Origin: Bacteroidales bacterium
GTDB taxonomy: Bacteria; Bacteroidota; Bacteroidia; Bacteroidales; F082
DNA: 64,000 bases
NCBI GenBank assembly: GCA_017549805.1
Contig: JAFYNJ010000008.1
Coordinates: 124,001 to 188,000, forward strand
Direction: 5' to 3'
Part shown: positions 10,061 to 63,307 of the stretch, piece by piece
How the letters are laid out: every line of letters starts with the position of its first letter
Position numbering within the stretch: the first letter of the stretch is position 1
The notes under the pieces: generated by a model
The model's input: only the letters and a program-made list of their open reading frames with translations
What the model was told of the DNA's origin: nothing
Database searches by the model: none
Made by a program: the position numbers and the translations under genes

Positions 10061-10063
10061 GGG

Positions 10064-10098
10064 GAGGTGAGAGGTGAGAGGTGAAAGGTGAAAGTTAA
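10064..10098. repeat. Heptamer array between Plug gene and priA (GAGGTGA family)
   Basis: On the plus strand the array reads GAGGTGA three times, then AAGGTGA and AAGTTAA, in exact 7-base phase. The last unit contains the stop codon of the Plug gene, and only GGG separates the first unit from the priA ATG. Read in the gene direction it is a run of TCACCTC. A near-identical array precedes tatD at 63266. Confidence 0.93.
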
Positions 10099-11372
10099 TG
10101 AGAAAGGAGGGTGGTGTAGCCTATTAATTCGTCATAGCCTTTGTTGGCGTTGTAGTAATACAAATAAATCCTGTACAGGTTGTCGGTATCCCAAAAGTTG
10201 CCTTCTGTAAGCTCTGTGGAAACCGCATACGAGTTTCGGTCGGCCGTGACGAAGAGGAAATTGTAATATCCTTGTTTGAGCAGTAGCTGGCACAGGTAGC
10301 CATGCAAATTATAGTCATACCGCATCAGGTTGCGCTCATCGAATCTCCAATTGTTGGCGGCGCCCATTACATACACATCTTCCTGGATCAGAGGAGTTGG
10401 CCAGCGAAGGAAGATGTTAACCCAAGCATAATCAGCCTCCGTGTCGGTTTCGCGTCCTTCATTGGCAATGTAGATGTATTTTTCACCGTGGATATCCTCG
10501 TAGGTGATATAAGGCTTACGCGCCCTCGATTCACAGGTGGCGTAATCCACCACATAATAATCGTCGGTTTGATAGATACGGGCAATGTTTTCCGATTGGA
10601 AATAGAAGTTACTGAAGTTGAGCCTCCGATATTGGTTGGAAGCCTCGAAAACCGTTGCCGGATGATGTTCGTATGAGATGTAATCGGGATAGACGAACGA
10701 AGGTTTCAACCCGATGGCGGCATTGTCCCAACGGCCATTCTGACGGATGGTCATGTTGGCATATTGCTGCACATTTCCCGTCATGATGCTCGGCATGTTG
10801 ACTTTGATGTTCAGTTGCTGATGAGTGTCGCTAAGTGAAAGATCATCGCAATAGCGGGGCACAGAAGCCGTAATGGAGGCTTTTTCGTCGTAAATCATAA
10901 AGCGCCGGGTGAAATAGACATGCTCCTCTGAAAGATCGTCACCATAAACAATGAGCAAGTAGTTCCCAGAAAGGGTAGGCTTCATGTCCTCATCGGGGAA
11001 AGAAAGGCGATAATGCACATAGTCAACCAATGTGTTCCGAGAAAAATCGAAATCATCGATTCGACCGTAATCAAAACCATTGACATAAGTGGTCCTCTGG
11101 ATTTCGGTGGGATACCAATCGTTGGTACAATGGATAAAAGTATAATTGAGCACTTCGCCTTCCGAACCCAATAGATCGAACGACAAAGTAAGCCGGCCCG
11201 TTGGATTGTCCAACGGAATCAAGGGTTCCTTGTTTTGGTTGCCGTCGGCATAGAGCAGCACCGTCTTCACCGATTCCTTGTAATCGAGATCGGCGCATGG
11301 TAAATCAAAGGGTTGGGCCAAGGCACTCGTGACAAGAAACAGGCCCAATAGAAAAGAAAGTGCTTTTTTCAT
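10095..11372 (-). CDS. Type IX secretion system Plug protein (DUF5103 family)
   Basis: The 425-residue protein has a signal peptide (MKKALSFLLGLFLVTSALA) and matches the DUF5103 family, whose members occupy the SprA channel from the periplasmic side when PorV is absent. Recognisable stretches are VLLYADGNQNKEPLIPLD, WYPTEIQRTTYVNGFDYG and the C-terminal RIYLYYYNANKGYDELIGY. It should act in the periplasm, sealing the translocon encoded at 44914. A longer frame reaches 11453, but its first 27 residues are not signal-like and cover the -7 element at 11390, so the ATG at 11372 is chosen. It is followed directly by the heptamer array and priA, and is divergent from a PorT-like barrel gene. The function is taken from the family. 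Confidence 0.88.
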   Translation of the reverse strand: MKKALSFLLGLFLVTSALAQPFDLPCADLDYKESVKTVLLYADGNQNKEPLIPLDNPTGRLTLSFDLLGSEGEVLNYTFIHCTNDWYPTEIQRTTYVNGFDYGRIDDFDFSRNTLVDYVHYRLSFPDEDMKPTLSGNYLLIVYGDDLSEEHVYFTRRFMIYDEKASITASVPRYCDDLSLSDTHQQLNIKVNMPSIMTGNVQQYANMTIRQNGRWDNAAIGLKPSFVYPDYISYEHHPATVFEASNQYRRLNFSNFYFQSENIARIYQTDDYYVVDYATCESRARKPYITYEDIHGEKYIYIANEGRETDTEADYAWVNIFLRWPTPLIQEDVYVMGAANNWRFDERNLMRYDYNLHGYLCQLLLKQGYYNFLFVTADRNSYAVSTELTEGNFWDTDNLYRIYLYYYNANKGYDELIGYTTLLSH

Positions 11373-11389
11373 CTGATTGTTACTTTCTG

Positions 11390-11397
11390 CAAAAATA
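11390..11397 (-). promoter_or_regulatory. Bacteroidota -7 element for the Plug/priA transcript
   Basis: The minus strand reads TATTTTTG followed by C, 17 bases before the Plug ATG. It supports the shorter start. Confidence 0.6.
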
Positions 11398-11422
11398 ATG
11401 CATTTTTTAAAAGAAATCTCCC

Positions 11423-11430
11423 TATCTTTG
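11423..11430 (+). promoter_or_regulatory. Bacteroidota -7 element for the 11459 gene
   Basis: TATCTTTG followed by CC lies 28 bases before the ATG at 11459, back to back with the Plug promoter. Confidence 0.6.
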
Positions 11431-11458
11431 CCTTTTGTTGAAACAAAATCCATCCAAG

Positions 11459-12295
11459 ATGAAAAACACAGTCCGTTGCCTTATTGTATTGGCTTTCACC
11501 CTGTCGGTTTCCTTTGCGGAAGCCCAAGTTATCGGGAAAGAGAATTTGGTCTTGAAAAAGAACATCTTTTTAGGTTTTAAGGGAGGGGTGTCGGCCATGG
11601 ACATGAAATACTCCTACAATGAGTCAATAGATAAGGATAATTTCATCAATAAAACCGCTTTGTTTAAAGCTCCTTTGGGCTGTTGGACTGGAGGCTTTTT
11701 CGTGGAGCGCACCCTTCCTGGATGGTCCTACGGCATTGAGTTCAACCTCAACCATCTTTATGCCACAGAAAAAATACCGGACAATCCAAGCAAAGGTCTG
11801 AAAGACGCACAGAACCCTTCTTGGGACTCGGTCTATTTTGCCAATATCCGCATTCCCGTCAAGCTCAAGTTTTTGGAAGACGATATGTTTTCACCCTATA
11901 TCTTTATGGCACCCGAAATCGGAACCTATATTAGCGATTCCATTGCAAGCAGCATCCCCGTCTTCTCCTATTCCAGCATTGATGGCGAGCAGGAGGCATG
12001 GGGGGCAGACAATGCCCGCAAATTGAACTTGAATCTGGTGGCAGGTGCCGGCGTGGAAGGCAAAATACAAATCGGGCTCTATGAAATCAGAGCCCGATTT
12101 GAAGCTGGTTACCGTTTGGGATTGCTCAGCACTACGCCCAAGTACATTCCACAGGATCCAAACACAAACGATCCGAACGCAACGCCGCCTCAACCTGAAG
12201 CGTATCCGTTCAAAAGGATGATGCGTGGCTGGGAAGCTACCATAGGATTGGCTTTCCCCTTGTTCCTCAATCCGAGTTATAGCTGGATGAACTAA
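11459..12295 (+). CDS. Outer membrane beta-barrel protein, PorT-like family
   Basis: The 278-residue product has a signal peptide (MKNTVRCLIVLAFTLSVSFAEA) and a pattern of alternating strands with aromatic girdles, for example FLGFKGGVSAMD, GWSYGIEFNLNHLY, ARFEAGYRLGLLS and WEATIGLAFPLFLNPSY. This is the layout of the PorT-like eight-stranded barrels common in Bacteroidota. PorT itself belongs to T9SS, but this family is broad, so no role in secretion is claimed beyond being divergent from the Plug gene. The start follows the promoter; an in-frame upstream ATG at 11435 precedes the signal peptide and is less likely. The last 4 bases overlap the convergent HIT gene. Confidence 0.75.
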   Translation: MKNTVRCLIVLAFTLSVSFAEAQVIGKENLVLKKNIFLGFKGGVSAMDMKYSYNESIDKDNFINKTALFKAPLGCWTGGFFVERTLPGWSYGIEFNLNHLYATEKIPDNPSKGLKDAQNPSWDSVYFANIRIPVKLKFLEDDMFSPYIFMAPEIGTYISDSIASSIPVFSYSSIDGEQEAWGADNARKLNLNLVAGAGVEGKIQIGLYEIRARFEAGYRLGLLSTTPKYIPQDPNTNDPNATPPQPEAYPFKRMMRGWEATIGLAFPLFLNPSYSWMN

Positions 12296-12681
12296 GCCTC
12301 GACAATTGCCTTCTGAACCTCAAGAAACTCCTCTTGAGTCAGTTTCAAATGTTCTTTCTTGAAGTCCAAGTCGCCCTCACAAGTGATGGGGACAAGATGA
12401 ATGTGGGCATGGGGAACTTCCAGCCCGATGACGGCAACGGCAATGCGCTTGCAGGGGATGGCCTTTTCGATCTTCTGTGCGACTTTCTTGGCGAAGACCA
12501 TCATGCTGCCCAATTCCTCATCTTCGATGTTGAAGATATAGTCCGTCTCATGCTTTGGGACGACCAAGGTATGACCTTTTGACAAAGGATTGATGTCAAG
12601 GAAGGCAAAGAACTGGTCGTCTTCGGCTATTTTATAGCAAGGTATTTCACCCTGAATGATTCTGGAAAAAATGGTAGCCAT
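12292..12681 (-). CDS. HIT family nucleotide-binding protein
   Basis: This 129-residue protein belongs to the histidine triad superfamily, small hydrolases of nucleoside phosphoramidates and dinucleotides. It starts TIFSRIIQGEIPCYKI, contains FLDINPLSKGHTLVVPK and has the catalytic triad motif HAHIHLVPI near the C-terminus. Length and motifs are normal for the HINT branch. It lies downstream of greA on the same strand, with a heptamer array filling the gap from the greA stop to this ATG, so the two are likely co-transcribed. Its 3' end overlaps the convergent barrel gene by 4 bases. The physiological substrate cannot be read from sequence. Confidence 0.93.
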   Translation of the reverse strand: MATIFSRIIQGEIPCYKIAEDDQFFAFLDINPLSKGHTLVVPKHETDYIFNIEDEELGSMMVFAKKVAQKIEKAIPCKRIAVAVIGLEVPHAHIHLVPITCEGDLDFKKEHLKLTQEEFLEVQKAIVEA

Positions 12682-12682
12682 G

Positions 12683-12724
12683 GCGGTTCAGAGTTGAGAG
12701 TTTAGGGTTGAGAGTTTAGAGTTA
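12683..12724. repeat. Heptamer array between greA and the HIT gene
   Basis: Read in the gene direction, the stop codon of greA is followed by TAACTCT, AAACTCT, CAACCCT, AAACTCT, CAACTCT and a decayed GAACCGCC, then the ATG of the HIT gene. The unit is 7 bases with consensus NAACTCT. It fills the entire gap. Confidence 0.88.
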
Positions 12725-13198
12725 TTAACGGGTGATTTCGAGTATTTCGAAAAACATCTTTCCGGCGGGGACCATGATCTCAGCCACTTCACCGACTTTC
12801 TTACCGAGGAGACCTTGTCCGATAGGAGAATTGATGGAAATCTTTCCAGACTTGAAATCAGCTTCCTTTTCAGGAACGATGGAATAAGTCATCGAGGCCT
12901 TGGTCTTGGTGTTCTTGATCTTGACCGTTGAATAAAGGAGCACCTTGGAAGTGTCAATCTTCGACTCATCCAACACGCGAGCGTTGAAGATCAAATCCTG
13001 CAGGTCGGCTATCTTAGCTTCAAGAAGGCCTTGTGCTTCCTTGGCAGCATCGTACTCTGCGTTTTCCGACAAATCACCTTTATCGCGTGCTTCAGCGATG
13101 GCCTGGATGATACGCGGACGTTCACGAAGGATCAAGTCATCCAATTCGTCCTTCAACTTTTGCAACCCTTCAGAGGTAAAATACTTGATTTCTGACAT
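12725..13198 (-). CDS. greA: Transcription elongation factor GreA
   Basis: GreA enters the secondary channel of RNA polymerase and stimulates cleavage of backtracked RNA. The 157-residue product has the N-terminal coiled coil (MSEIKYFTSEGLQKLKDELDD) with the acidic tip GDLSENAEYDAAKE, whose Asp and Glu residues are catalytic. The C-terminal FKBP-like domain contains SPIGQGLLGKKVGE. Length is standard. The leader between the promoter at 13269 and this ATG holds a complete intrinsic terminator hairpin (13222-13260), which suggests attenuation of greA. It is followed by the HIT gene after a heptamer array. Confidence 0.97.
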   Translation of the reverse strand: MSEIKYFTSEGLQKLKDELDDLILRERPRIIQAIAEARDKGDLSENAEYDAAKEAQGLLEAKIADLQDLIFNARVLDESKIDTSKVLLYSTVKIKNTKTKASMTYSIVPEKEADFKSGKISINSPIGQGLLGKKVGEVAEIMVPAGKMFFEILEITR

Positions 13199-13221
13199 GG
13201 TATAGGTTTTTTAACAACGTG

Positions 13222-13260
13222 AAAAAAGAGACCCTTACCGGAATAAGGGTCTTCTTTTTT
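13222..13260 (-). terminator. Intrinsic terminator inside the greA leader
   Basis: An 8-base-pair stem (GACCCTTA at 13230-13237 with TAAGGGTC at 13244-13251, loop CCGGAA) is followed on the minus strand by TCTTTTTT. It lies downstream of the PorV-like gene and also between the greA promoter and the greA ATG. It can therefore end read-through and also attenuate greA itself. The A tract on the other side makes it symmetrical. Confidence 0.85.
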
Positions 13261-13268
13261 TGAATGTG

Positions 13269-13276
13269 CAAAGATA
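13269..13276 (-). promoter_or_regulatory. Bacteroidota -7 element for greA
   Basis: The minus strand reads TATCTTTG followed by CAC, with a TTG about 21 bases upstream. Transcription would begin near 13264, so the leader is about 65 nt and includes the hairpin at 13222-13260. Confidence 0.65.
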
Positions 13277-13307
13277 CTAATTTTCTTTCAAATGTTGCAA
13301 CACATTT

Positions 13308-14378
13308 TTAGAAAATAAGTCTTGCGCCAATGCTGTGGGTGCCCGAATAGCTATAGGTTTGGCGGAAAGCGTAGTCAATAGCGAGCATCGGGGCATCCTC
13401 TTTCTTGGAAATCGGAACTTGGACAGAGCAACCGGCATTGAGTCCTTGGTTAAGGTTCATGCAGTTCTCATCCAAAATGCCTTTGAACAATCCGCTCTCG
13501 TAGGTATAACCAGCACGGATCAAGAACCACTCTCTCCAGCCGTATTCAAGACCGAGGACATATTGGTCCTTGGTGAAGGAGTTGGAGATGAAGTTGCCAG
13601 CAAAGGTGATACGGGAAGTCTCAGCAAAGTGCCAGTCGTAAGCAGCTGCAATACTCAACTGAGTAGGAAGCTCGAACTGGTCGGCACGTTGGATCACCGT
13701 ATGCTGCAACGAGCTGTTGGGCAGCAAGTAGGCCTTGATTGACAAACCGTCGCCCGACATGGTCATGGTGGGTCCAATGTTCTTCAGGGTGATACCGAAG
13801 TGGATGTTGTCGAAAGGACCGGTAACATACTGGATACCGGCATCAAGGGCAACACCGACAGCACCCATGTTAGCAATGGACTCGCTGATGATCTTCAGGT
13901 TGAAACCACCGCTGATGCTGTTGGAGAACGTTTTGGCAAATGCCACGTTGATGTTCATGAGATTCGGCTTGAAGGTACCGATACCACCATCGGGGTTGTC
14001 AGTGGTGGTCTCCATGATCGTTCCGGGATTCAGGGAGAAGAAGGAAAGTCCCAACACGCTTGATTCGCCCACACGCACAGCCATACCGAAGGAAGAGATC
14101 TTCACTTCGGAGCCTTTCAGCCAGTCAGTATGGGAGAAGTTGACATCCAATGAACGGATGGCCGAGATGCCGGCCACATTGCCGAACATGGCTTCAACAC
14201 CCTTCACGAACGACATGCCTGCATTGCCCCAACCTGCTGAAGCAGCCCAGGGGTTGATCAACAATTCAGGAGCACCGGCTTGACCGGAACGGTCCTCATT
14301 ACCTGCAAATGCCTTGGGAGCGCTGACTCCAAGAAGGAGAACAAGGCTCATTACTATATATCTAAATGATTTCTTCAT
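13308..14378 (-). CDS. PorV/PorQ family outer membrane barrel protein
   Basis: The 356-residue product has a signal peptide ending PKAFAG, then the family hallmark APELLINPWAASAGWGNAGMS, followed by repeated strand pairs typical of the FadL-like PorV/PorQ barrel. PorV proteins carry T9SS cargo from SprA to the attachment complex. This copy is the last gene of a module with a TonB-dependent receptor and a 1515-residue cargo protein, so it may be a dedicated partner of that cargo rather than the general PorV. The ATG at 14378 is preferred to the one at 14405 because the signal peptide starts there. A terminator follows within the greA leader. The family is clear; the pairing with the cargo is inference. 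Confidence 0.82.
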   Translation of the reverse strand: MKKSFRYIVMSLVLLLGVSAPKAFAGNEDRSGQAGAPELLINPWAASAGWGNAGMSFVKGVEAMFGNVAGISAIRSLDVNFSHTDWLKGSEVKISSFGMAVRVGESSVLGLSFFSLNPGTIMETTTDNPDGGIGTFKPNLMNINVAFAKTFSNSISGGFNLKIISESIANMGAVGVALDAGIQYVTGPFDNIHFGITLKNIGPTMTMSGDGLSIKAYLLPNSSLQHTVIQRADQFELPTQLSIAAAYDWHFAETSRITFAGNFISNSFTKDQYVLGLEYGWREWFLIRAGYTYESGLFKGILDENCMNLNQGLNAGCSVQVPISKKEDAPMLAIDYAFRQTYSYSGTHSIGARLIF

Positions 14379-14416
14379 GATTCTGATATTTTTAAGGTTA
14401 AGCATTTCACGATAAA

Positions 14417-18964: not shown

Positions 18965-19003
18965 AATATCTGTGATTATTCGATTAAATTCTACCATCAT
19001 TCA

Positions 19004-23307: not shown

Positions 23308-23311
23308 CGAC

Positions 23312-23761
23312 ATGAAAAAAAGCGTTGTCCTATTACTTCTCCTATCAACAATGGTTTTCCTCGGCTGCGAAAGCGAACCGGAGAACCCCAACTACCCCAA
23401 TGCCATTATAGATTTCACCATCAACCTGAACCAGAATTCATACTATGATCTCAGGGTGGTAAGCGGCTACATGTACCTTACCTCCGACTACGAGAGCAGC
23501 AGCCGCGGCATCATCGTTTACAGATACTCTCTGGATGAATTCAGAGCCTACGACCGCCTTCCTCCGAACAACCCCAATGCCTGCTGCGACGAACAAGGCA
23601 ATTGCACCCGACTGGTGGTGGAATCACCTTTTGTCATTGACCACTGCAACGACATCAAGTACAACATCCTGAATGGTGATATTGTCGAAGGCAATGGCGT
23701 CTATCCTTTGATCCAATACCACACCAGCTTCAACGGCTACGAGTTGCACATATATAATTAG
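23312..23761 (+). CDS. Lipoprotein resembling a Rieske-type fold that lacks cluster ligands
   Basis: The 149-residue product has a lipoprotein signal ending FLGC, Cys at 19. The order of segments (GIIVYRYSLDEFRAYDRLPP, a CC-containing turn, VVESPFVIDHC, YNILNGDIVEGNGVYPLIQY) resembles Bacteroidota lipoproteins built on the Rieske fold. The paired Cys-x-His and Cys-x-x-His ligands of a 2Fe-2S cluster are not present in the usual form, so it is probably not an iron-sulfur protein. The fold assignment is by pattern memory only. The ATG sits 4 bases after the -7 element. The stop codon TAG is the first part of a heptamer array. Confidence 0.7.
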   Translation: MKKSVVLLLLLSTMVFLGCESEPENPNYPNAIIDFTINLNQNSYYDLRVVSGYMYLTSDYESSSRGIIVYRYSLDEFRAYDRLPPNNPNACCDEQGNCTRLVVESPFVIDHCNDIKYNILNGDIVEGNGVYPLIQYHTSFNGYELHIYN

Positions 23762-23795
23762 GAGTGAGGAGTTAGAAGTTAGGAGTTAGGAGTTT
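23759..23795. repeat. Heptamer array joining two convergent stop codons
   Basis: After TAGGAG the plus strand reads TGAGGAG, TTAGAAG, TTAGGAG, TTAGGAG and TTTTC in 7-base phase. The stop of the 23312 gene (TAG at 23759-23761) and the stop of the convergent DAHP synthase gene (23786-23788) both fall within the array. Confidence 0.88.
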
Positions 23796-24954: not shown

Positions 24955-26394
<1,440 letters not shown>

Positions 26395-26425
26395 GATAAG
26401 AGATAAGAGATAAAAGATAAAAGTT
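26395..26425. repeat. Heptamer array between asnS and rpoN
   Basis: The stop of asnS is followed by GATAAGA, GATAAGA, GATAAAA, GATAAAA and GTT, then the rpoN ATG. The unit is 7 bases and the array fills the whole gap. Confidence 0.92.
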
Positions 26426-30434: not shown

Positions 30435-31100
30435 ATGACCTTCAGCGACAAACTGCATATCCTCTGCTCCATCCCCAAGACGTTGCGTTTCAATCTTCAT
30501 TACTTCCCCTTCAAGACGGCCATCAAGTGCCCTGTGATGGTGTCGCGAAGAGTGTATTTGAGGGAGTTGCATGGCAAGGTGACGATCCCCGAAAATGCCG
30601 AGACCGCCAGTATCAAAATCGGGTTCGGCGATGTGGGGCATTACGACCGCAAGCGTTCGCGGACAATATGGCAAGTGAGCGGTGAGGTGGATTTCAAGGG
30701 CAAGGCCTCCATCGGCCATGGCAGCAAGATTTCCGTAAGAGGCAAGCTGGAGTTGGGCGACTGGTTCAACATTACGGCGGAAAGCACCATCGTGTGCGCC
30801 AAGGACATCCGCTTCGGCAATCATTGCTTGGTGAGTTGGGATGTGTTGGTGATGGACACTGACGAACATCCTATTTATAACAAGGAAGGGGAACGCATCA
30901 ACGAAGACCGTCCCATCGTCGTGGGCAACCATGTATGGATCGGCTGCAAGTGCATGCTGCTGAAAGGTGCCGAGTTGCCGGATAACACGATTCTCGCCGC
31001 AGGCACCGCCTTACGGTCGGCCTTCCGCGGCGAAGATCAAATCATTGGCGGCAATCCACCGTCCATCCTCAAGAGAGAAGTTCGCTGGGAACATTCGTGA
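30435..31100 (+). CDS. Hexapeptide-repeat acyltransferase
   Basis: The 221-residue protein has a left-handed beta-helix pattern in its C-terminal two thirds (GKASIGHGSKISVRGKLELG, RFGNHCLVSWDVLVMDTDEH, IVVGNHVWIGCKCMLLKGAE, PDNTILAAGTAL). A histidine in DTDEH corresponds to the usual catalytic position. Such enzymes transfer acetyl or other acyl groups to sugars in surface polysaccharides. There is no neighbouring polysaccharide cluster, so the acceptor cannot be guessed. The N-terminal 60 residues (KLHILCSIPKTLRFNLHYFP) are typical of the Bacteroidota subgroup. A long palindrome separates it from the convergent adk. Confidence 0.85.
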   Translation: MTFSDKLHILCSIPKTLRFNLHYFPFKTAIKCPVMVSRRVYLRELHGKVTIPENAETASIKIGFGDVGHYDRKRSRTIWQVSGEVDFKGKASIGHGSKISVRGKLELGDWFNITAESTIVCAKDIRFGNHCLVSWDVLVMDTDEHPIYNKEGERINEDRPIVVGNHVWIGCKCMLLKGAELPDNTILAAGTALRSAFRGEDQIIGGNPPSILKREVRWEHS

Positions 31101-31103
31101 TAT

Positions 31104-31189
31104 GTCATTGCGAGCGCAGCGAAGCAATCCAACCAGCATCATTTCGGGTCAAGTTGGATTGCTTCGTCGCTAACGCTCCTCGCAATGAC
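31104..31189. repeat. Dispersed palindromic element between convergent genes
   Basis: Left arm GTCATTGCGAGCGCAGCGAA (31104 onward to 31132) pairs with a right arm at 31154-31189 whose reverse complement begins GTCATTGCGAGGAGCG and ends GAAGCAATCCAA. The arms match except for small internal loops; about 21 bases lie between them. Elements of this sequence are, as I recall, scattered in intergenic regions of many bacteria. It fills the gap from the acyltransferase stop to the adk stop and could act as a bidirectional terminator. Confidence 0.85.
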
Positions 31190-38689: not shown

Positions 38690-38696
38690 ACTGGTC

Positions 38697-38744
38697 AACT
38701 GAACAACTGAACAACTGAACAACTGAACAACTGAACAACTTCAA
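38697..38744 (+). repeat. Octamer array directly upstream of purE
   Basis: AACTGAAC is repeated five times without a mismatch, followed by AACTTCAA, and the purE ATG begins one base later. It is the only array in the window with an 8-base unit. Confidence 0.93.
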
Positions 38745-52754: not shown

Positions 52755-52763
52755 CCTTTCCCT

Positions 52764-53177
52764 TTGGACAGATTCACAAGAAATAGTTACCCGGGAGTCC
52801 TTTGTGCATTGGTGATCCTCGTGCTTACAGGGCTGCCGGGTTCTTGTTTTCCCAAGGTCAAGCCCACCATCGGACTCGACAAGGTAGCCCACCTGCTCAT
52901 GTACCTGGGCTTTGCCTTCATCACGCTGTGGGGCTACCGCAAGCCCTTCCAGGAAAACGGGAAAAGCTACCGACGCAAAGCACTATGGCTTACGCTGGCC
53001 ATCGGCATCGTGTTCGGCGCACTCACCGAAATCATGCAGGAAAAGCTGGTTCCCTCACGCATCGGAAGCGTTTATGACTGGATCGCCGACATCATCGGGA
53101 GCATTATTGGAGTGACGGCCTATTATTTTTTCAATCGAAATGGAAATAATTTGAAAAATGAGTCGTTACATAAATAA
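52764..53177 (+). CDS. VanZ-like family membrane protein
   Basis: This 137-residue protein has about four membrane helices and the family pattern KPTIGLDKVAHLLMYLGFAF, ALTEIMQ and IGSVYDWIADIIGSIIGVTA. VanZ-like proteins are small integral membrane proteins; a few influence glycopeptide resistance, but most have unknown function, so no resistance is implied. The start is a TTG nine bases after the gcvH stop; no in-frame ATG occurs before the first helix, so the exact start is uncertain. It probably shares the gcvH transcript. In F. johnsoniae a gene of this type is, as I recall, also close to sprA. Confidence 0.8.
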   Translation: MDRFTRNSYPGVLCALVILVLTGLPGSCFPKVKPTIGLDKVAHLLMYLGFAFITLWGYRKPFQENGKSYRRKALWLTLAIGIVFGALTEIMQEKLVPSRIGSVYDWIADIIGSIIGVTAYYFFNRNGNNLKNESLHK

Positions 53178-53233
53178 ATAATTACTAATTTCGCAACGGA
53201 AAAATTTGCGAATTATTAAAAACACTATAACCA

Positions 53234-53911: not shown

Positions 53912-53912
53912 T

Positions 53913-55709
53913 CTAACAACGGAAATGGTCGAAGACTAACTTCGCCTTTGCCGGACCAATCAAGGAAGTCAAGCTTTCGAGCGAGGCTTCCTTGATTGCT
54001 TTTACGGACTTCAGTTCCAGCAACAGTTTCTCGGCCGTCGCCTTCCCGATACCCTTGATGTCGGCCATCTCCGAATGCATGAAACCCTTTTCGAATTGCT
54101 TGCGGTGATGCGTGATGGCGAAACGGTGCACCTCATCCTGGATGTGCGTCATCAGCCTGAAGATCTCTGAATCGGGCTTGATACCCACCTCCTTCGGAGG
54201 GAAGCCATAAAGCAGCTCACGGGTACGGTGCCTGTCGTCCTTGACCAATCCCGCGATGGCGATCTCCACATGCAGCTCGTCCTCGATTACCTGCCTGACG
54301 ACCTCCATCTGACCCTTGCCACCGTCAGTGACAATCAAGTTGGGCAAAGGCTTCTCTTCCTCCAATAGGCGCGAATAGCGGCGACGCACCACCTCTTTCA
54401 TTGAGGCATAGTCGTCGGCACCCACCACCGTCTTGATGTTGAAATGCCGATAGGCGCTCTTGTTAGGCTTGCCATTGACGAACTGCACCATGGCCGCCAC
54501 AGGATAGTCGCCCTGGAAGTTGGAGTTGTCGAAACACTCGATGATTTCAGGAACGACAGGCAGATGCAGCATCTCCTTGAGCTGGTTGAGCACCCGTTTC
54601 TGATGGCGCTCGGGATCCACCAGCGTGCGCTGTTTCTCCACATCCATCCTATATTGCAAGGCATTGCGGCGTGAGAGCTCCAAAAGCTTCATCTTGTCGC
54701 CTCGCTGGGGTACGGTGACTTCCACTTCGCCCAAGTCGAAGTCGAGTTTCATGGGCAACACCACCTCTTGCGATGACGACTCGAACTGCTGCCGCAAGTC
54801 GGTAACAGCAAACAAAAGCAGCTCCTCGGCCGACTCTTCCAACTTCCGCTTCATCTCCACGGTGTGCGACTGCACCACGGCCCCTTCGACCACCTTCATG
54901 TAGTTCACATAGAAGAGACTCTCGGAATCTACGTATGAGAATACATCCACGTTGTGGATGGTCGAGCTGACCACCGTGGAGCGGCTGCGGTAGTTCTCCA
55001 GCAATTCATATTTCTCCTTGATCACCTGTGCTTCCTCGAATTCCATCCTGGAGGCGTGGTCCATCATCTGGCTCTTCATCTCCTTGAGCACGCCCTGCAG
55101 GTTGCCTCGGATAATCTCCTTCACTTTCTGGATCATCTGCTGGTAGTCCTCACGGGAGACATTCCCCACGCACGAGCCCGCGCACTTGTGGATGTGATAG
55201 TCGAGACAAACACGGTATTTGCCTTTCTCGATGTTAGCCTCGGTCAAGGTGGTCTTGCAAGTGCGGATTTGATAGAGTTGACCCAATAGATCAAGGAGCA
55301 CATGGGCTGTACGAACCGAAGGATACGGTCCGTAGTAGTCCGACCCATCGTTGAGTTTACGGCGTGTCAGGAAAACCCTCGGGAAAGGCTCGTTTTTGAC
55401 GCAGATCCAAGGATAGGTCTTGTCGTCCTTGAGCATGATGTTGTAGCGCGGCTTGTACTGCTTGATGAGGTTGTTCTCAAGCAACAATGCCTCCGACTCC
55501 GACTCCACCACGATAAACTTGAAGTCGGCAATGCGGCTTACCAGAACCTTTGTCTTGCCCGTTTGCTCCTTGTTGAAATAGCTGGACACACGGCGCTTGA
55601 GGTTCTTCGCCTTACCCACATAGATGAGGTTACCGTCCTTGTCATAGTAACGGTAAACTCCCGGCTTATTGGGAATAGTGGCTAATATTGGTTTCAGGTC
55701 ACCTCTCAC
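53913..55709 (-). CDS. uvrC: Excinuclease ABC subunit C
   Basis: UvrC makes both incisions in nucleotide excision repair. The 598-residue protein has the GIY-YIG-type domain (GVYRYYDKDGNLIYVGKAKN), the UVR motif region (MEFEEAQVIKEKYELLENY), the RNase H-like domain with IECFDNSNFQGDYPVA and C-terminal helix-hairpin-helices (MADIKGIGKATAEKLLLELK). The frame can only begin at GTG 55709, which lies inside a heptamer array: the preceding in-frame stop is only six bases upstream. The array thus encodes the first residues MRGD. The upstream gene thiL ends in the same array, so the two are co-transcribed. Confidence 0.95.
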   Translation of the reverse strand: MRGDLKPILATIPNKPGVYRYYDKDGNLIYVGKAKNLKRRVSSYFNKEQTGKTKVLVSRIADFKFIVVESESEALLLENNLIKQYKPRYNIMLKDDKTYPWICVKNEPFPRVFLTRRKLNDGSDYYGPYPSVRTAHVLLDLLGQLYQIRTCKTTLTEANIEKGKYRVCLDYHIHKCAGSCVGNVSREDYQQMIQKVKEIIRGNLQGVLKEMKSQMMDHASRMEFEEAQVIKEKYELLENYRSRSTVVSSTIHNVDVFSYVDSESLFYVNYMKVVEGAVVQSHTVEMKRKLEESAEELLLFAVTDLRQQFESSSQEVVLPMKLDFDLGEVEVTVPQRGDKMKLLELSRRNALQYRMDVEKQRTLVDPERHQKRVLNQLKEMLHLPVVPEIIECFDNSNFQGDYPVAAMVQFVNGKPNKSAYRHFNIKTVVGADDYASMKEVVRRRYSRLLEEEKPLPNLIVTDGGKGQMEVVRQVIEDELHVEIAIAGLVKDDRHRTRELLYGFPPKEVGIKPDSEIFRLMTHIQDEVHRFAITHHRKQFEKGFMHSEMADIKGIGKATAEKLLLELKSVKAIKEASLESLTSLIGPAKAKLVFDHFRC

Positions 55710-55735
55710 CTCTCAACTTTCACCTCTCACCTTTA
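55701..55735. repeat. Heptamer array carrying the thiL stop and the uvrC start
   Basis: On the plus strand the units are ACCTCTC, ACCTCTC, AACTTTC, ACCTCTC and ACCTTTA in 7-base phase. Read in the gene direction they are AGGTGAG-like. The thiL stop (TGA, 55722-55720) and the uvrC GTG (55709-55707) both lie inside. The unit is the reverse orientation, relative to transcription, of those before priA and tatD. Confidence 0.9.
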
Positions 55736-57622: not shown

Positions 57623-57642
57623 GACAAAGTCCTTTTAAAATG

Positions 57643-57650
57643 CAAAAGTA
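57643..57650 (-). promoter_or_regulatory. Bacteroidota -7 element for the CPBP-thiL-uvrC transcript
   Basis: The minus strand reads TACTTTTG followed by CATT, 20 bases before the ATG. It lies 2 bases from the dusB element. Confidence 0.6.
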
Positions 57651-57652
57651 CG

Positions 57653-57660
57653 TATTTTTG
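57653..57660 (+). promoter_or_regulatory. Bacteroidota -7 element for dusB
   Basis: TATTTTTG followed by CAAC, 16 bases before the dusB ATG. Because it is so close to the opposite element, the two RNA polymerases cannot bind at the same time. Confidence 0.6.
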
Positions 57661-57676
57661 CAACAAAATTCATCTG

Positions 57677-58651: not shown

Positions 58652-58669
58652 CGTTTCCAAAAATAATTG

Positions 58670-58677
58670 TATTTTTG
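58670..58677 (+). promoter_or_regulatory. Bacteroidota -7 element for the CAT-anticodon tRNA
   Basis: TATTTTTG followed by CATCG lies 25 bases before the tRNA. Confidence 0.55.
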
Positions 58678-58702
58678 CATCGCAATCCCGCGAGGGCATT
58701 GC

Positions 58703-58776
58703 GGTCCCATAGCGCAGTTGGTTAGAGCAACTGACTCATAATCAGTAGGTCCTAGGTTCAAGCCCTAGTGGGACCA
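58703..58776 (+). tRNA. tRNA with CAT anticodon (probably elongator Met)
   Basis: A 74-base cloverleaf can be drawn. The acceptor stem is GGTCCCA with TGGGACC; the anticodon stem ACTGA/TCAGT has loop CTCATAA (anticodon CAT); the T arm is CTAGG, TTCAAGC, CCTAG; the discriminator is A. The D stem GCGC/GAGC contains one G-A mismatch. The CCA end is not encoded. CAT could mean elongator methionine or, after lysidine modification, isoleucine for AUA; the initiator is excluded because the first base pair is normal (G-C). No fixed mark decides between the two. Confidence 0.93.
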
Positions 58777-58782
58777 CGGAAA

Positions 58783-58814
58783 ACAAAAAAAGGATGCCTT
58801 TCGGCATCCTTTTT
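58783..58814. terminator. Bidirectional terminator between the tRNA and exbD
   Basis: An A-rich tract precedes AGGATGCC (58791-58798), TTTC loop and GGCATCCT (58803-58810), then TTTT. The stem has 8 perfect pairs. It ends the tRNA transcript on the plus strand and, on the minus strand, the exbB-exbD operon transcript. Confidence 0.9.
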
Positions 58815-58838
58815 AGTTTCGCGGCAGAGATGAACCGC

Positions 58839-59306
58839 TTAGTTTTCCAAAGCGCTACCCTTGAGTGTCGTGTAGTTGATACGGAAGGCACCAACCTTAC
58901 GGAGCTCCTGTTTCACGTCGGTGACGATACCCATACGGGTCTCTTTGTGCACCTTCAGTGCGGTAGTCATCAAAGGACGGTCGGCCTCATTGCGAGCTTC
59001 ACGTTCCTGAAGCACCCAGTCGGCGATGTCGTCGGGACGGGCGAACTGGTCGTTCAGCTGGATACGCGACTCGGTACCGAGTTTGGCATCACGCGGAGGG
59101 CCGATGTAGATGGAACTCACCAAAGCTTTCTTTTCGAGTTTGGCAATTTCGGTTGCCTTAGGCATGGCGGTCTTGACTTTCAGCTCCACATCACGCATTG
59201 AAGTGGTGATCATAAAGAAGAAGATCAACATGTAAACGATGTCGGGCAGTGACGAGGTGCTCACTTGCGGCACTTCCTTTTTGCCTCCTTTTTTGAATTT
59301 ACCCAT
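58839..59306 (-). CDS. exbD: ExbD/TolR family biopolymer transport protein (second copy)
   Basis: The 155-residue protein has a short cytoplasmic N-terminus rich in lysine, a membrane helix at about residues 20-40 (SSLPDIVYMLIFFFMITTSM) containing the Asp of the proton path, and a periplasmic domain. It is the last gene of a four-gene unit exbB, 4TM protein, exbD, exbD. With two different ExbD proteins in one operon, as in other Bacteroidota, a mixed stator is possible. It should power TonB-dependent uptake, or gliding-like or secretion machinery. A terminator follows. Confidence 0.92.
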   Translation of the reverse strand: MGKFKKGGKKEVPQVSTSSLPDIVYMLIFFFMITTSMRDVELKVKTAMPKATEIAKLEKKALVSSIYIGPPRDAKLGTESRIQLNDQFARPDDIADWVLQEREARNEADRPLMTTALKVHKETRMGIVTDVKQELRKVGAFRINYTTLKGSALEN

Positions 59307-59323
59307 AGTTCAATCCTCCATTA

Positions 59324-59887
59324 TTAATGTACTTCAACAGGTTCAGCTTCACTGACACGTACAGGAACAGCTTCGCTAACTGCTTTGGTTTGGTCTTCAT
59401 TGAGCTGGTCGAGATGTTTGTGGAAGTGTTTCCAAGCCATCTCCTCCTTCAACTCATTGAAGGCGCGTGCCAGCTCATTCTGCACACTGATATACATAGC
59501 ATACGATGTACCACGGTCGTTCTGCAGTGAGATCACGCCTTTCGACATCATGATTTCGCCGAGGAGCTCGATTGTCTTGGGCTCCACTTCCGGAGCGGTT
59601 TCATCGCCCGGGCGCGGGGTCATGAAGTTCTTGGCGTCATCCTTCAGCAGGGAGATGTCCGAAGGACGGCCGTTGACCATCAGCTTGTTATTCTTGTTAA
59701 TCAAAACATTCATCACGTTTCTTTCCTTGACCTTGACGTCATCGTCGTTCTGTTCCACCGGAGGGGGCAGACGACGGGTGATACCGTAGTCCACGTCCAT
59801 GGAGGTGGTCATCAGGAAGAAACACAACAGCAAGAATGCTATGTCAGCCTGCGAACTAGAATTGATTTCCGGAGTTTTCTTGGCCAT
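59324..59887 (-). CDS. exbD: ExbD/TolR family biopolymer transport protein (first copy)
   Basis: The 187-residue protein begins TPEINSSSQADIAFLLLCFF, the usual ExbD helix with the proton-path Asp, then has the periplasmic domain (VLINKNNKLMVNGRPSDISL). The C-terminal 30 residues (VSEAVPVRVSEAEPVEVH) are acidic and proline/valine-rich and look disordered. It lies 12 bases downstream of a small 4TM protein and 17 bases before the second exbD. It differs clearly from the second copy, so this is not a recent duplicate. Role as for the operon. Confidence 0.92.
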   Translation of the reverse strand: MAKKTPEINSSSQADIAFLLLCFFLMTTSMDVDYGITRRLPPPVEQNDDDVKVKERNVMNVLINKNNKLMVNGRPSDISLLKDDAKNFMTPRPGDETAPEVEPKTIELLGEIMMSKGVISLQNDRGTSYAMYISVQNELARAFNELKEEMAWKHFHKHLDQLNEDQTKAVSEAVPVRVSEAEPVEVH

Positions 59888-59898
59888 GATGAAATGTT

Positions 59899-60354
59899 TT
59901 ATTTACCTGATCTGATAACTGAATAGAGAATAGTGATGATGCTAACTCCAAGTGTAATATAGAAGAAGTTGAGGCCCCATTCGACCAATCCGTGGGTTCT
60001 GCCTGAATAAACATGCTCACCTGTGGGATATTCAACGCCGAAGCTGCCTCTTGACATGATGTAAGCTACAACTCCAATAACAATGATTGCACCGATGGCA
60101 ACCAAAATCTTCTTAAAGTTAACGCCTTTGATCATAGCTGTGACAACCACAGAGATGAGGGCGACAACAATACCAAGAATAATCAGGATGTAGCCCCAAT
60201 TCAGGAATAAATCGGCGCGAGGAGTGGGTTCACCATGTTCAAAGTTCGGCTTGATCGTACCCACGACGAGGTAGAACAGAACCGCGATGACAACGGTGAT
60301 TGCAGCCAATGCGACGAATACCCATTTCGAAATATTGGATGACTTGCCGTTCAT
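59899..60354 (-). CDS. Four-helix membrane protein in the exb operon
   Basis: The 151-residue product has four predicted membrane helices: about 12-30 (VFVALAAITVVIAVLFYLV), 52-72 (WGYILIILGIVVALISVVVT), 82-100 (ILVAIGAIIVIGVVAYIMS) and 128-146 (FFYITLGVSIITILYSVI). The loop between the third and fourth carries SFGVEYPTGEHVYSGRT. It has no known catalytic motif. It lies 12 bases after exbB and 11 bases before exbD, on the same strand, so it is co-transcribed and probably part of, or an assembly factor for, the Exb motor. The family function is unknown to me. Confidence 0.8.
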   Translation of the reverse strand: MNGKSSNISKWVFVALAAITVVIAVLFYLVVGTIKPNFEHGEPTPRADLFLNWGYILIILGIVVALISVVVTAMIKGVNFKKILVAIGAIIVIGVVAYIMSRGSFGVEYPTGEHVYSGRTHGLVEWGLNFFYITLGVSIITILYSVIRSGK

Positions 60355-60366
60355 GATTATTACTTT

Positions 60367-61188
60367 TTATTTGTTGTTGTACTTAACGAGGATGTCCATG
60401 AAGCTGATGGAAGCGTCTTCCATGTCGCTCGTGATCTTTTCGATTTTGGATGCAATGAAGTTGAAGAAAATCTGAAGGATGATAGCGGCGATCAGACCGA
60501 ACACGGTGGTCAACAGAGCGACCTTCATACCGGAGGCAACGACCGTCGGGCTCATGTCACCAGCAGCGGCGATAGCGTCGAATGCGGAGATCATACCGAT
60601 AACGGTACCCATAAATCCGAACATAGGAGCCAAGCTGATGCAGAGGCCGATCCAGCTCAAACCGCTTTCAAGTTTACCAGCGGCAACGGCACCGTAGGAG
60701 ACGAGTGACTTCTCGACTTCGTCCAGCGACTGACCGTCCTGATAACGGATGAGACCTTGGGTGAAGATGCTGGCCACAGGACCGCGGGTGTCCTTGCAGA
60801 GCTGTTTGGCACCTTCAACGTCGCCAGCCTTCATCTTCTCTTCGATACCGGCGAGAAGCTTCTTGGAATTGGCGTCAGCCATGGTCAGATAGATGATTCT
60901 CTCAATGGAGATGGCCATACCAAGCAGCAAGATGACCAACACGATGCCCATGAAGCCAGGACCGCCATCGATGAATTGTTTCTTGATGACCTCACGGAAG
61001 GTGGTAGGACCTTCAGCGGGAGTGAGTTCGGTAGTAGCGGCAGCCTCTTCAACTGCAGGAGCTACGGTTTCAGCAACCTGTTCGGTAGCTGCTTCTTCTG
61101 GTTGAGCTTGCTCTTCTTGAGCAAAGAGATTGCTGATTCCAAATGTCATAAAACCAACAATCGTGAGGAAAGCAATTAATTTTTTCAT
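60367..61188 (-). CDS. exbB: ExbB/TolQ/MotA family proton channel protein
   Basis: The 273-residue protein has an unusual start for the family: a cleavable-looking signal (MKKLIAFLTIVGFMTFGISNLFAQ) and an Ala/Glu/Pro-rich stretch to about residue 65. ExbB helices follow: first helix about 79-98 (GFMGIVLVILLLGMAISIER), then the paired helices GAVAAGKLESGLSWIGLCIS and VVASGMKVALLTTVFGLIAA. The motif GFMGTVIGMI is diagnostic. This long N-terminal form is common in Bacteroidota. It is the first gene of the exb operon and would supply energy to TonB at 53234. Confidence 0.93.
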   Translation of the reverse strand: MKKLIAFLTIVGFMTFGISNLFAQEEQAQPEEAATEQVAETVAPAVEEAAATTELTPAEGPTTFREVIKKQFIDGGPGFMGIVLVILLLGMAISIERIIYLTMADANSKKLLAGIEEKMKAGDVEGAKQLCKDTRGPVASIFTQGLIRYQDGQSLDEVEKSLVSYGAVAAGKLESGLSWIGLCISLAPMFGFMGTVIGMISAFDAIAAAGDMSPTVVASGMKVALLTTVFGLIAAIILQIFFNFIASKIEKITSDMEDASISFMDILVKYNNK

Positions 61189-61233
61189 GATTTAGTTTAA
61201 TGTTGTGATTACAAATAATTTCTGTTCAGTCAG

Positions 61234-61321
61234 CGGAGAGAGCGGGATTCGAACCCGCGGTACCCTTTTGGAGTACACACACTTTCCAGGCGTGCTCCTT
61301 AAACCACTCGGACATCTCTCC
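61234..61321 (-). tRNA. tRNA-Ser (GGA anticodon)
   Basis: An 88-base class II tRNA is read on the minus strand. The acceptor stem is GGAGAGA with TCTCTCC; the anticodon loop CTGGAAA gives anticodon GGA; there is a long variable arm and the T arm CGGGTTCGAATCCCG. Discriminator is G as expected for serine. The CCA end is not encoded. It lies in the gap between exbB and ansA. Confidence 0.95.
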
Positions 61322-61396
61322 AAGAAAAATCGTTGCCAAAATTACATAATTTTTTGTTTGAAAAACCAAGACAACCGCATTTTTTTTGCAAACATC

Positions 61397-62431
61397 CTAT
61401 TTTGTCATTTCACCCCTGATGGAAATGCCAAGGATTTCAATGACTTTCTCCCTGGAGAGGCCTTCGCCGATGAGATACATCAGCTTGGCGACGGCCGCCT
61501 CGGTGGTCAAGTCGTAGCCGCTCACCACGCCGATACGAGCCATGTCGAGACTGGTCTCGTAACGGCCCATCTCCACGGAACCGCCCTTGCACTGGGTGAT
61601 GTTGAGGATGATCAACCCGCGGTCGATGGCCTCTTTCAAGGCATCGAGGAACCAAGGGGCAGTGGTGGCGTTGCCTGAGCCGAAGGTCTCCAGCACCATG
61701 GCCTTCAAGCCCGGCGTGCGCAAGGCATGGCACACAAACTCCTCGGAGATGCCTGGGAACAGCTTGATAATGCCAACGTTGCGGTCCATGTTGGTGTGCA
61801 GCTTCAGCTTCTTGAAGTTGGGCTTCAGGATGCGGTCCTTGTTGTATTTGATGTGCACGCCCACCTCGGCCAGACCCGGATAGTTGGTAGAAGCGAAGGC
61901 GTTGAAATTCTCCGCGTTGAACTTGGTGGTGCGGTTGCCACGCAGCAACTGGTCCTGGAAGAAGATGCAGACCTCGGGCACGATGGCAGTGTCGTCTTCC
62001 TTGGCGGCGGCAATCTCGATGGCAGCCAAGAAGTTCTCACGACCGTCGGTGCGCACCACACCCATGGGCAGCTGCGATCCCGTCAGCACCACGGGCTTGT
62101 TGAGGTTCTCGAGCATGAAGCTCAGTGCCGAGGCCGTGTAGGCCATCGTGTCGGAGCCATGCAGCACCACGAAGCCGTCGTATTGCTCATAGTTTTCCGT
62201 GATCTTGGTGGCCAACTTTGCCCAGAAGTCGGGTGACATGTTCGACGAATCGATCAGCGGATCGAACGAGTAGAAGTCGATCTGGTAGCCGAAGTTCTGC
62301 AACACGGGAAGGTGCTTATAAATGTTATCGAAGTCGAAAGGCACCAAGGCACCCGTCTTGGGGTCCTGCATCATGCCGATGGTGCCGCCGGTGTAAAGCA
62401 CCAGGATGGAAGTCTCTTCTTTTTGGGTCAC
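61397..62431 (-). CDS. ansA: Type I L-asparaginase
   Basis: AnsA hydrolyses asparagine to aspartate and ammonia in the cytoplasm. The 344-residue protein has the first active-site motif LYTGGTIGMMQDP (Thr about 14-17) and the second motif VVLHGSDTMAYTASALSF. There the usual Thr is replaced by Ser93 next to Asp94, a conservative change. MVLETFGSGNATTAPWFLDA in the C-terminal domain is also typical. There is no signal peptide. The start is GTG at 62431. The leader between the promoter at 62480 and the GTG consists mostly of a heptamer array. tatD lies upstream. Confidence 0.95.
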   Translation of the reverse strand: MTQKEETSILVLYTGGTIGMMQDPKTGALVPFDFDNIYKHLPVLQNFGYQIDFYSFDPLIDSSNMSPDFWAKLATKITENYEQYDGFVVLHGSDTMAYTASALSFMLENLNKPVVLTGSQLPMGVVRTDGRENFLAAIEIAAAKEDDTAIVPEVCIFFQDQLLRGNRTTKFNAENFNAFASTNYPGLAEVGVHIKYNKDRILKPNFKKLKLHTNMDRNVGIIKLFPGISEEFVCHALRTPGLKAMVLETFGSGNATTAPWFLDALKEAIDRGLIILNITQCKGGSVEMGRYETSLDMARIGVVSGYDLTTEAAVAKLMYLIGEGLSREKVIEILGISIRGEMTK

Positions 62432-62441
62432 TTTTTTTAGA

Positions 62442-62476
62442 ATTTAGAAGTCAGAAGAAAGAAGTAAGAATTTGAG
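62442..62476. repeat. Heptamer array in the ansA leader
   Basis: On the plus strand the units are ATTTAGA, AGTCAGA, AGAAAGA, AGTAAGA and ATTTGAG, consensus ANNNAGA with 7-base phase. It is more degenerate than the others. It begins right at the predicted transcription start of ansA, so it forms most of the 5' leader. Confidence 0.7.
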
Positions 62477-62479
62477 TTG

Positions 62480-62487
62480 CAAAGATA
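62480..62487 (-). promoter_or_regulatory. Bacteroidota -7 element for ansA
   Basis: The minus strand reads TATCTTTG followed by CAAC, in the gap downstream of tatD. Confidence 0.6.
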
Positions 62488-62494
62488 GGGTTTT

Positions 62495-63262
62495 TTAGAT
62501 TTTAAAGAGTGTTTTGACGTTTCTTGTGGTGATTTCAGCGATTTCTTGCACTAACATTTCATAGATTTCAGCGATCTTTTTAGCCGTCTCCACCATGAAA
62601 GCGGGTTCATTGCGCTTGCCGCGGTGTGGCACGGGCGACAGGTAAGGCGCGTCGGTCTCCAAAACGATGCGGTTCAAGGGAATATTGTGCAGATAATCTT
62701 TCACACCGCAATTCTTGTGAGTGGTCACGCCGCCCAACCCCAGATGGAAACCCAGTTCGAGGTAAACCTTGGCCTCTTCCTCTGTACCTGTGAAGCAGTG
62801 CATCACGCCTTTCAAGCTTCCATCCTGATGCTTTTCCAGTATCCTGGCCATGAAGCCGAAGGCGTTGCGGCAGTGGATGGAAAGCGGCAATCCGAGCTGT
62901 TTGGCCCATCCCAGCTGGGTTTCGAAAGCGTCAAGCTGTTCCTTTTCGAAGGTGGTGTCCCAATAGAAGTCGAGGCCGATTTCCCCAACACCTATATAAA
63001 TATCGCGTTCGAGTTCCTTTTCCATGTTGGCGAGCACCTGCTTGTAGTCGCCTTTCACCTCTTCGGGTTGGAGGCCCATCATCATGCGGGTGCAATCGGG
63101 AAAACACTCATGCGTCGCCAACATGGGCGCGATGGTGGAAGCATCCACATTAGGCAAAAGCAACATGCCAACCCCCGCTTCGAGAGCCCTTTTTACGGCT
63201 TCTTCACGGTCGAGGTCGAACTCGGGACCATAGATATGGGTATGGGTGTCGATGAGGTGCAT
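62495..63262 (-). CDS. TatD family metal-dependent hydrolase
   Basis: The 255-residue TIM-barrel protein starts LIDTHTHIYGPEFDLDREEA with the metal-binding HTH pair. It has GVGEIGLDFYWDTTFEKEQL and LPLSIHCRNAFGF with the second metal-site His, CFTGTEEEAKVYLELGFHLG and ETDAPYLSP near the end. TatD enzymes are 3'-5' DNA exonucleases or D-aminoacyl deacylases. The ATG directly follows a heptamer array that begins in the stop codon of hflX, so the two genes are probably co-transcribed. Confidence 0.95.
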   Translation of the reverse strand: MHLIDTHTHIYGPEFDLDREEAVKRALEAGVGMLLLPNVDASTIAPMLATHECFPDCTRMMMGLQPEEVKGDYKQVLANMEKELERDIYIGVGEIGLDFYWDTTFEKEQLDAFETQLGWAKQLGLPLSIHCRNAFGFMARILEKHQDGSLKGVMHCFTGTEEEAKVYLELGFHLGLGGVTTHKNCGVKDYLHNIPLNRIVLETDAPYLSPVPHRGKRNEPAFMVETAKKIAEIYEMLVQEIAEITTRNVKTLFKI

Positions 63263-63265
63263 GGG

Positions 63266-63307
63266 GAGGTGAGAGGTGAGAGGTGAGAGGTGAAAGGTGA
63301 AAGCTAA
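63266..63307. repeat. Heptamer array between hflX and tatD (twin of the priA array)
   Basis: GAGGTGA occurs four times, then AAGGTGA and AAGCTAA. Compared with 10064-10098 it has one more unit and one base change in the last unit, in the same phase relative to the upstream stop codon. The sequence from CATGGGGAGGTGA onward is identical. Confidence 0.95.

Follow-up and report, generated by a model that had tools for sequence, protein, structure and literature searches.

Eight tandem arrays of 7- or 8-base units stand at gene borders in a 64-kb stretch of a Bacteroidales genome (G000:C8:124001-188000, hereafter the window), and these arrays probably belong to several short dispersed-repeat families, each consisting of cassettes of a few 7- or 8-base units. 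Cassettes of one family are present at many unrelated places of the genome. The preliminary description of the window, which was made from its letters alone, had listed all eight arrays, and we found each of them within a few bases of where it was placed, seven with period 7 and one with period 8. It had also argued that a fixed period combined with a variable unit sequence speaks against dispersal; that argument does not hold, as the unit families are limited in number and long exact stretches recur at unrelated places.

Dispersed unit families and a recurrent cassette

Our sample from the genome that carries the window (G000; 2.73 Mb in 33 contigs) comprised 796 kb, namely the 64-kb window and 38 stretches; genomes compared are given here as G-numbers, and single stretches or loci as L-numbers. 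The family analysis was based on 97 arrays of this sample with a period of 7, 8 or 14 at score 12. These reduce to 30 dominant units, and 46 of the 97 have at least 21 exact bases in common with another array, while the corresponding number was 0-7 in five controls with column-permuted unit positions. The clearest case is a 30-mer, AGATAAAAGATAAGAGATAAAAGATAAAAG, which is made of four unit variants in a set order and occurs exactly at 14 places in G000, or 12 distinct places once the two pairs located in duplicated contig ends are each counted once; when up to two mismatches are allowed, the number of matches rises to 36, some of them overlapping, and the array behind asnS in the window is one mismatch away from it. 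The flanks of the 30-mer are unrelated between places, apart from its downstream side, where the next base is T in 24/30 rows and the second is T in 28/30 (up to two mismatches, some rows representing the same place).

Patterns were searched in 60 genomes, 36 of the genus (our own included) and 24 members of the order, in a collection holding one genome per species. The exact 30-mer was found in four of them, all of the genus (14 copies in G000, 10 in G022, 16 in G033 and 4 in G035). Of its 30 places in relatives, 14 were compared with the 14 own loci: homologous surroundings were seen for three own loci, all in G035, and visual inspection of one of these (L309/L332) showed its immediate flanks to differ. 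Three GAGGTGA units in a row, with at most one mismatch, were present in 5/60 genomes, all of the genus, and the backward-read control, itself a heptamer repeat, also in five. More generally, arrays with period 7 or 14 (score 14) were seen in 21 of 32 other genus members, in stretches of 4-400 kb, and in 2 of 20 order members, for which 0.4-20 kb each were available, two of these stretches being without G or C and probably masked. Among the genus members displayed, the units vary by species.

Exact copies at unrelated sites with a common 3' end, GATAAAAG, and TT next in most rows are what a dedicated mobile system would be expected to leave, whether based on a transposase (RAYT-like, as in REP/REPIN) or on a reverse transcriptase, and the limited array size and strict polarity of array pairs described below would fit as well. 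Such a system is a possible but unlikely source of the cassettes. The Y1 transposase family PF01797 has a single match in G000 (C7:7876), more than 2 kb from the nearest array in the sample, and none in the array-rich G035, which is 90% complete and has 51 GAGGTGA-pattern matches, nor in the array-bearing G001, G005 and G015 (reverse transcriptases were not searched for). The family is found in 27/36 genus and 19/24 order members, yet only 2 of the 20 order members sampled have arrays, and several unrelated unit families behave alike. As Y1 presence does not follow the arrays, we consider a RAYT transposase unsupported.

That the arrays result from assembly or binning errors is extremely improbable. 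Although contamination of G000 is put at 7.58% and two of its contig ends are duplicated (C13:20001-31163 equals C14:8838-20000, and C30:63460-74233 equals C8:20001-30774), arrays are present in the 21 other genus members mentioned, flanks are conserved between species, and arrays occur in a public Bacteroidales record from yak reticulum (L183), which has six gene matches to the window (mean identity 83%, best 95%). Because the redundant contigs are 99.99-100% identical over about 11 kb, they say nothing about strain variation, and were of no use as a strain comparison.

The window also contains a palindrome-like dispersed repeat of another kind, TCATTGCGAG...GCAATCC (31051-31188 and 58987), found at 28 places in our sample; for the 10-mer, 28 copies compare with about 1.5 expected. 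An Rfam search of the window returned two tRNAs and nothing else.

Period, size and placement

The preliminary description considered period 7 special, gene borders the favored site, and the arrays the product of some process that keeps building or replacing them there, and our results agree with it on each point. When periods 2-30 were scored equally, with a threshold of score 14, the intergenic DNA of the sample gave 48 arrays, 35 with period 7, five with period 8, four with period 14 and four with others, and the coding DNA 40, including 26 with period 7 and four with period 14; far from being equally frequent, periods 5 to 9 are thus dominated by period 7, as is the whole range scanned. 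Ten Markov-1 versions of the intergenic DNA yielded no array of any period at this score, so that shuffled sequence does not reach the observed frequency. Nor are arrays equally common inside genes: 39 with period 7 or 14 lie in 59.6 kb of intergenic and 30 in 737 kb of coding DNA, an approximately 16-fold difference in density per base, even with arrays overlapping gene ends scored as coding. The 657 genes on which this division rests were called from open reading frames with our own codon model, and their starts and the small genes are approximate, some calls being perhaps wrong.

Among 83 detected period-7 arrays of the sample, 65 have four to five units and none more than eight, with arrays below about three units concealed by the detection threshold. 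The signal at lag 7 is not raised in intergenic DNA outside the arrays, which rules out decayed arrays as a general background. In our genome and six relatives, with some of the junctions homologous to each other, arrays were found at 29/125 convergent, 93/617 tandem and 12/176 divergent junctions (convergent versus divergent, p = 6e-5). The arrays therefore occupy places that tolerate change, that is to say operon junctions and the space between convergent genes, less often divergent junctions, and occasionally proteins, in frame.

Strand polarity and paired arrays

A strong bias toward G or C on one strand is seen in 95 of 126 arrays of our sample (51 G, 44 C; 31 untyped) and in 120 of 199 of the relatives. 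Pairs of arrays no more than 60 bases apart number 11 in our genome, seven of them purine-then-pyrimidine and none reversed, and 28 in the relatives, with eleven and zero, respectively; hence the purine arm comes first in 18 opposite-type pairs to 0, the rest of the 39 being untyped or direct. In tandem gaps measuring 55 bases or more, 23/27 purine but 7/16 pyrimidine arrays are nearer to the stop codon (p = 0.007), and in divergent gaps the pyrimidine strand has the same sense as the closest start in 11/12.

These figures, together with the pre-start arrays of the AACTGA family described below, could suggest a selected function, in which purine strands behind stop codons and paired arrays would act as terminators or mRNA-end elements and pyrimidine strands as leaders, while their letters drift. 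We regard this as unlikely, since over all tandem gaps both types are nearer to the stop (purine 47/60, pyrimidine 28/38), and in convergent gaps just 10/18 purine arrays of our genome, compared to 20/25 in the relatives, have the same sense as the closest stop. Furthermore, 12 of 20 array junctions compared between G000 and G033 have an array above threshold in one species only, although at least four of these, by eye, hold a shorter or weaker one in the other, and pairs of the same polarity exist inside called genes, where termination would be detrimental. The stop bias is in part due to the many purine units that contain a stop codon and supply that of the gene. As a general rule, however, neither the supply of stop codons in all frames, given that the purine strands of GAAGTCA, AACGGAA and GAAGACA contain none by our own reading, nor the placement of pyrimidine strands before starts, which fails over all tandem gaps and holds in divergent and long tandem ones, could be retained.

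An oriented family upstream of start codons

Arrays with an AACTGA-like core and one or two further bases stand immediately upstream of start codons. For each array, we searched the next 14 bases downstream for the ATG of an open reading frame of 60 codons or more, and this was found for 7/7 AACTGA arrays of our sample and 14/19 of the relatives, with three of the five misses having an ATG 12-17 bases on, by eye. The numbers for the other families, our genome first, were 7/12 and 3/5 for GATAA (0/12 and 0/5 in reverse), 0/8 and 0/4 for GGTGA (2/8 and 0/4 for TCACC), and 0/2 and 0/10 for GGAGTK (1/2 and 3/10 in reverse). Both spacings of the core occur, as triplets with period 8 (AACTGANN) were present in 27/60 genomes, 26 of the 36 genus members among them (backward control in 3), and triplets with period 7 in 15/60. 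By visual inspection, 13/30 loci have an array of this type upstream of purE, and a TATTTTTG-like box often precedes it. Judging from its position and single orientation, the family probably serves as an unstructured leader or as a binding site for translation. A variant of it, AACTGAGG arrays with period 8, was seen in G009 (C6, C20 and C76).

Turnover between species

The arrays of sister species differ in their number of whole units, and at one junction a cassette can give way to that of another family between flanks that remain similar. G033 and G078 are sister species connected by long matches of 90-95% identity, and seven of the eight arrays on one G078 contig could be placed in G033. 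Two were identical, three differed in unit number by one 8-mer, two 7-mers and one 7-mer (steps of 8, 14 and 7 bases), and two, one of which is the array before purE, belonged to another family between flanks 87-94% identical. Comparison of the junctions of our own genome with twelve relative sequence sets gave 201 comparisons, which are not independent. In 147 of them neither side had an array above threshold; the unit agreed in 10 and differed in 10, and the array was confined to our genome in 19 and to the relative in 15. One different-unit case (L059 15) proved to be artefactual, the best of several arrays having been picked where both species have both, and its removal leaves nine, from four own junctions. 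By eye, some of the one-sided cases against G033 hold a shorter or weaker array (10064, L059 7, L059 8 and L061 9). At junction 2 of L059, our genome has the spacer GGGCGGACACACAGGTCCGCCC where G033 has a heptamer array, and a spacer can thus also hold an unrelated palindrome.

The junctions of the window (Table 1) illustrate this turnover. Between asnS and rpoN, where G022, G033 and G004 each have a unit family other than ours, four species display GAGATAA, AGAATTT, GGAGTTA (followed by its reverse complement) and AGAAGAC units, with the stop codon and the flanks conserved. The thiL/uvrC junction has a GGAGTTA-type array in G033 and G078 and a GTTTTCC-type in G008, the TatD/asparaginase junction a period-8 family in G033 and G078, and the junction at 10064 two GGAGTTA units in G033. 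The greA/HIT junction in G033 and G013, and the GTPase/TatD junction in G033 and G078, hold no array. The arrays at 63266 and 10064 have identical ends and the same order of end variants.

Could slippage account for all of this, every array being born in place through a 7-base duplication? The dominance of period 7 and the whole-unit differences between sister species are in line with such an origin, for which exact runs of two units could be the seeds. However, the small menu of units, the long exact haplotypes common to unrelated sites, the absence of any array of more than eight units in our sample and the exchange of families between conserved flanks all argue otherwise, and the 30-mer at 12 distinct places contradicts slippage as the sole cause, which is very unlikely.

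Table 1. Tandem arrays of the window
Unit	Period	Position	Strand	Location
GAGGTGA x4	7	10064..10094	+	between T9SS-plug gene stop and priA start, both minus
GTTTAGA/GTTGAGA	7/14	12686..12723	+	between greA stop and HIT-family gene start, both minus
TTAGGAG/TGAGGAG	7	23758..23794	+	convergent junction; minus-strand neighbour is the DAHP synthase/chorismate mutase gene
GATAAGA/GATAAAA	7	26393..26423	+	from asnS stop codon to 2 bases short of rpoN start
CAACTGAA	8	38696..38740	+	ends 5 bases upstream of purE start codon, behind TATTTTTGC motif
GAGGTGA on minus strand	7	55699..55732	-	thiL stop/uvrC start, both minus
AGAATTT/AGAAGTM	7	62436..62473	+	between TatD-family gene stop and asparaginase gene start, both minus
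GAGGTGA x5	7	63266..63303	+	between GTPase gene stop and TatD-family gene start, both minus

According to the preliminary description, the arrays typically run from a stop codon exactly to the next start or stop. Four of them (10064, 12686, 26393 and 63266) conform to this with a tolerance of about 5 bases at either end, but the other four do not: those at 23758 and 55699 overlap both gene ends, that at 62436 leaves 24 bases on one side, and the purE array is 105 bases away from its neighbour on the other side. The TATTTTTGC motif preceding the latter array resembles the Bacteroidetes -7 box.

Arrays inside genes

In our sample, 22 arrays lie within called genes at a depth of more than 45 bases, a few of these gene calls being weak. 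The clearest coding case is a gene for a SufS-type cysteine desulfurase (TIGR01979; L056:7490-8704), matched in 55 of 60 genus genomes searched and in none of the other five, the match in G027 being weak. We read the loop concerned in 30 loci (L346-L375) plus L183 and L261, that is 32 rows from 31 genomes, as L183, with an identical loop, is counted together with G035. Heptamer arrays with differing units occupy it in 7/31 genomes (G000, G078, G022, G008, G035/L183, G010 and G068), in the form of inverted pairs in G022, G008 and G010, and other inserts in 6/31 (G004, G013, G018, G079, G032 and G016), which makes 13/31 with any insert; the remaining 18 have neither. Of the non-heptamer inserts, only the TCATTGCGAG-type one in G004 and G013 was demonstrated to be a dispersed repeat, in our own genome. 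By our reading, the array of G000 replaces the usual loop residues and is not added beside them. In six further genomes the SufS match is split near residues 100-113. A second gene family, represented by L161 and L053:3969-5399, shows array-coded peptides at one place, KVKGERLKVKG and then SHLSPFTSHLS; L161 has a second, different version of the peptide, and our own copy another array there.

Possible mechanism

Changes in unit number would be attributable to replication slippage, and we infer that spread and in-place replacement come about by non-reciprocal copying, from one array to another or to new sites. While DNA is being replicated or repaired, template switching or ectopic conversion might provide the route, with short matches in the 7-base register as a guide and presumably with no dedicated transposase taking part. 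The template-copying enzyme that had been proposed earlier is not required by the data, even if one may be involved all the same.

Several observations weigh against a reading of the arrays as copied cassettes. The junction at 63266, with a gap of 41 bases in our genome and 3 in G033 and G078, looks like an insertion, and other junctions look like replacements that keep a similar length, so that one mechanism may not cover all of them. No target-site duplication or common boundary rule could be established, and the collection, with its one genome per species, showed no case of insertion or conversion inside a species. Local point mutation followed by homogenisation could yield some of the unit changes, and the strict order of the pairs is not explained by tolerance and copying alone. 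Finally, because exact runs, which are broken by mismatches, are most commonly of two units in six of eight unit families, and because the threshold hides the shortest arrays, the size peak at four to five units is firm only at its upper side.

Comparison with known systems

Cyanobacterial STRR heptamers are tandem repeats of which several families coexist in a genome. The genus studied here resembles them in this regard, albeit in another phylum. Rickettsia palindromic elements are a single palindromic family of short repeats that are tolerated in frame in protein genes, and in-frame inserts in conserved protein genes are likewise found here, in the SufS-type loop and elsewhere; in contrast to that single family, we see many families of tandem heptamers, as single or paired arrays. 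With respect to REP/RAYT (REPIN) systems, the difference lies in the Y1 transposase near repeat copies, which our arrays lack.

The preliminary description knew of no system to which the arrays could be assigned. Heptamer arrays of much the same architecture are, however, already known from Xanthomonas and Nostoc (PMC4692102) and from Beggiatoaceae, cyanobacteria and a few Bacteroidetes (PMC4679880), as far as the parts of these articles available to us go, to which all that follows on them refers. In addition to citing three Calothrix heptanucleotides, Rehm et al. (2015; PMC4692102) described G-rich heptamers, GGGAATC in Xanthomonas and GGGGA(C/T)T in Nostoc, which are similar to ours in unit number, in location, in their convergent pairs and strand preference and in the way they vary among close species, and which have G-tracts that fold into quadruplexes. 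Our arrays share the period of 7, the roughly four units (65/83 with four to five, shorter ones being partly hidden), the inverted convergent pairs (18 to 0) and the avoidance of divergent junctions (12/176 versus 29/125), but our commonest units are without GGG by our own reading. Quadruplex formation therefore cannot account for this architecture in general, and was rejected as its basis. MacGregor (2015; PMC4679880) reported TAACTGA direct repeats just before start codons in Beggiatoaceae, together with indels in 7-base steps and other heptamers, some of them in Bacteroidetes. The AACTGA core and its forward, pre-start placement are found here as well, whereas the strict 7-base unit is not, as period 8 (AACTGANN) is commoner, beside many heptamer families. 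Our literature searches returned nothing on heptanucleotide tandem repeats in Prevotella, and MacGregor (2015) alone on intergenic heptamer repeats in Bacteroidetes. For long simple sequence repeats, Mrazek et al. (2007; via PMC4679880 and PMC4692102) noted an excess of heptamers and proposed slippage; gain and loss of whole units between close relatives (7-, 8- and 14-base steps, G033/G078) agree with this, but independent origin without long common sequence does not, the cassettes being indicative of dispersal beyond slippage.

One might go further and suppose that bacteria widely possess a hitherto undescribed process which draws on a stock of heptamer cassettes kept across the genome, overwrites spacers and tolerant coding loops in place with copies of them, always leaves purine-first pairs behind, and made the heptamer arrays of Xanthomonas, Nostoc, Beggiatoaceae and this genus, each with words of its own; we think that rather improbable. 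What is new relative to the accessible parts of PMC4692102 and PMC4679880 is the presence of many G-tract-free families in one genome, exact cassette haplotypes at unrelated sites, the exchange of families between sister species and the reuse of a coding loop; the first of these articles, in the part available, describes neither cassette haplotypes nor in-place swaps nor a coding-loop site. With a similar architecture built without G-tracts, exact cassettes across sites and family swaps, the genus allows the slippage, quadruplex and regulator ideas to be separated, and its dozens of related species are a natural set for asking how such repeats move and why their unit is seven. In addition, the repeats rewrite spacers as well as one loop in a conserved iron-sulphur-assembly enzyme, which is relevant when genes are called and proteins aligned for gut genomes. 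With these arrays, a class of bacterial repeats that is still little understood, and had been known from a few other phyla, is extended to a gut-type bacterium.

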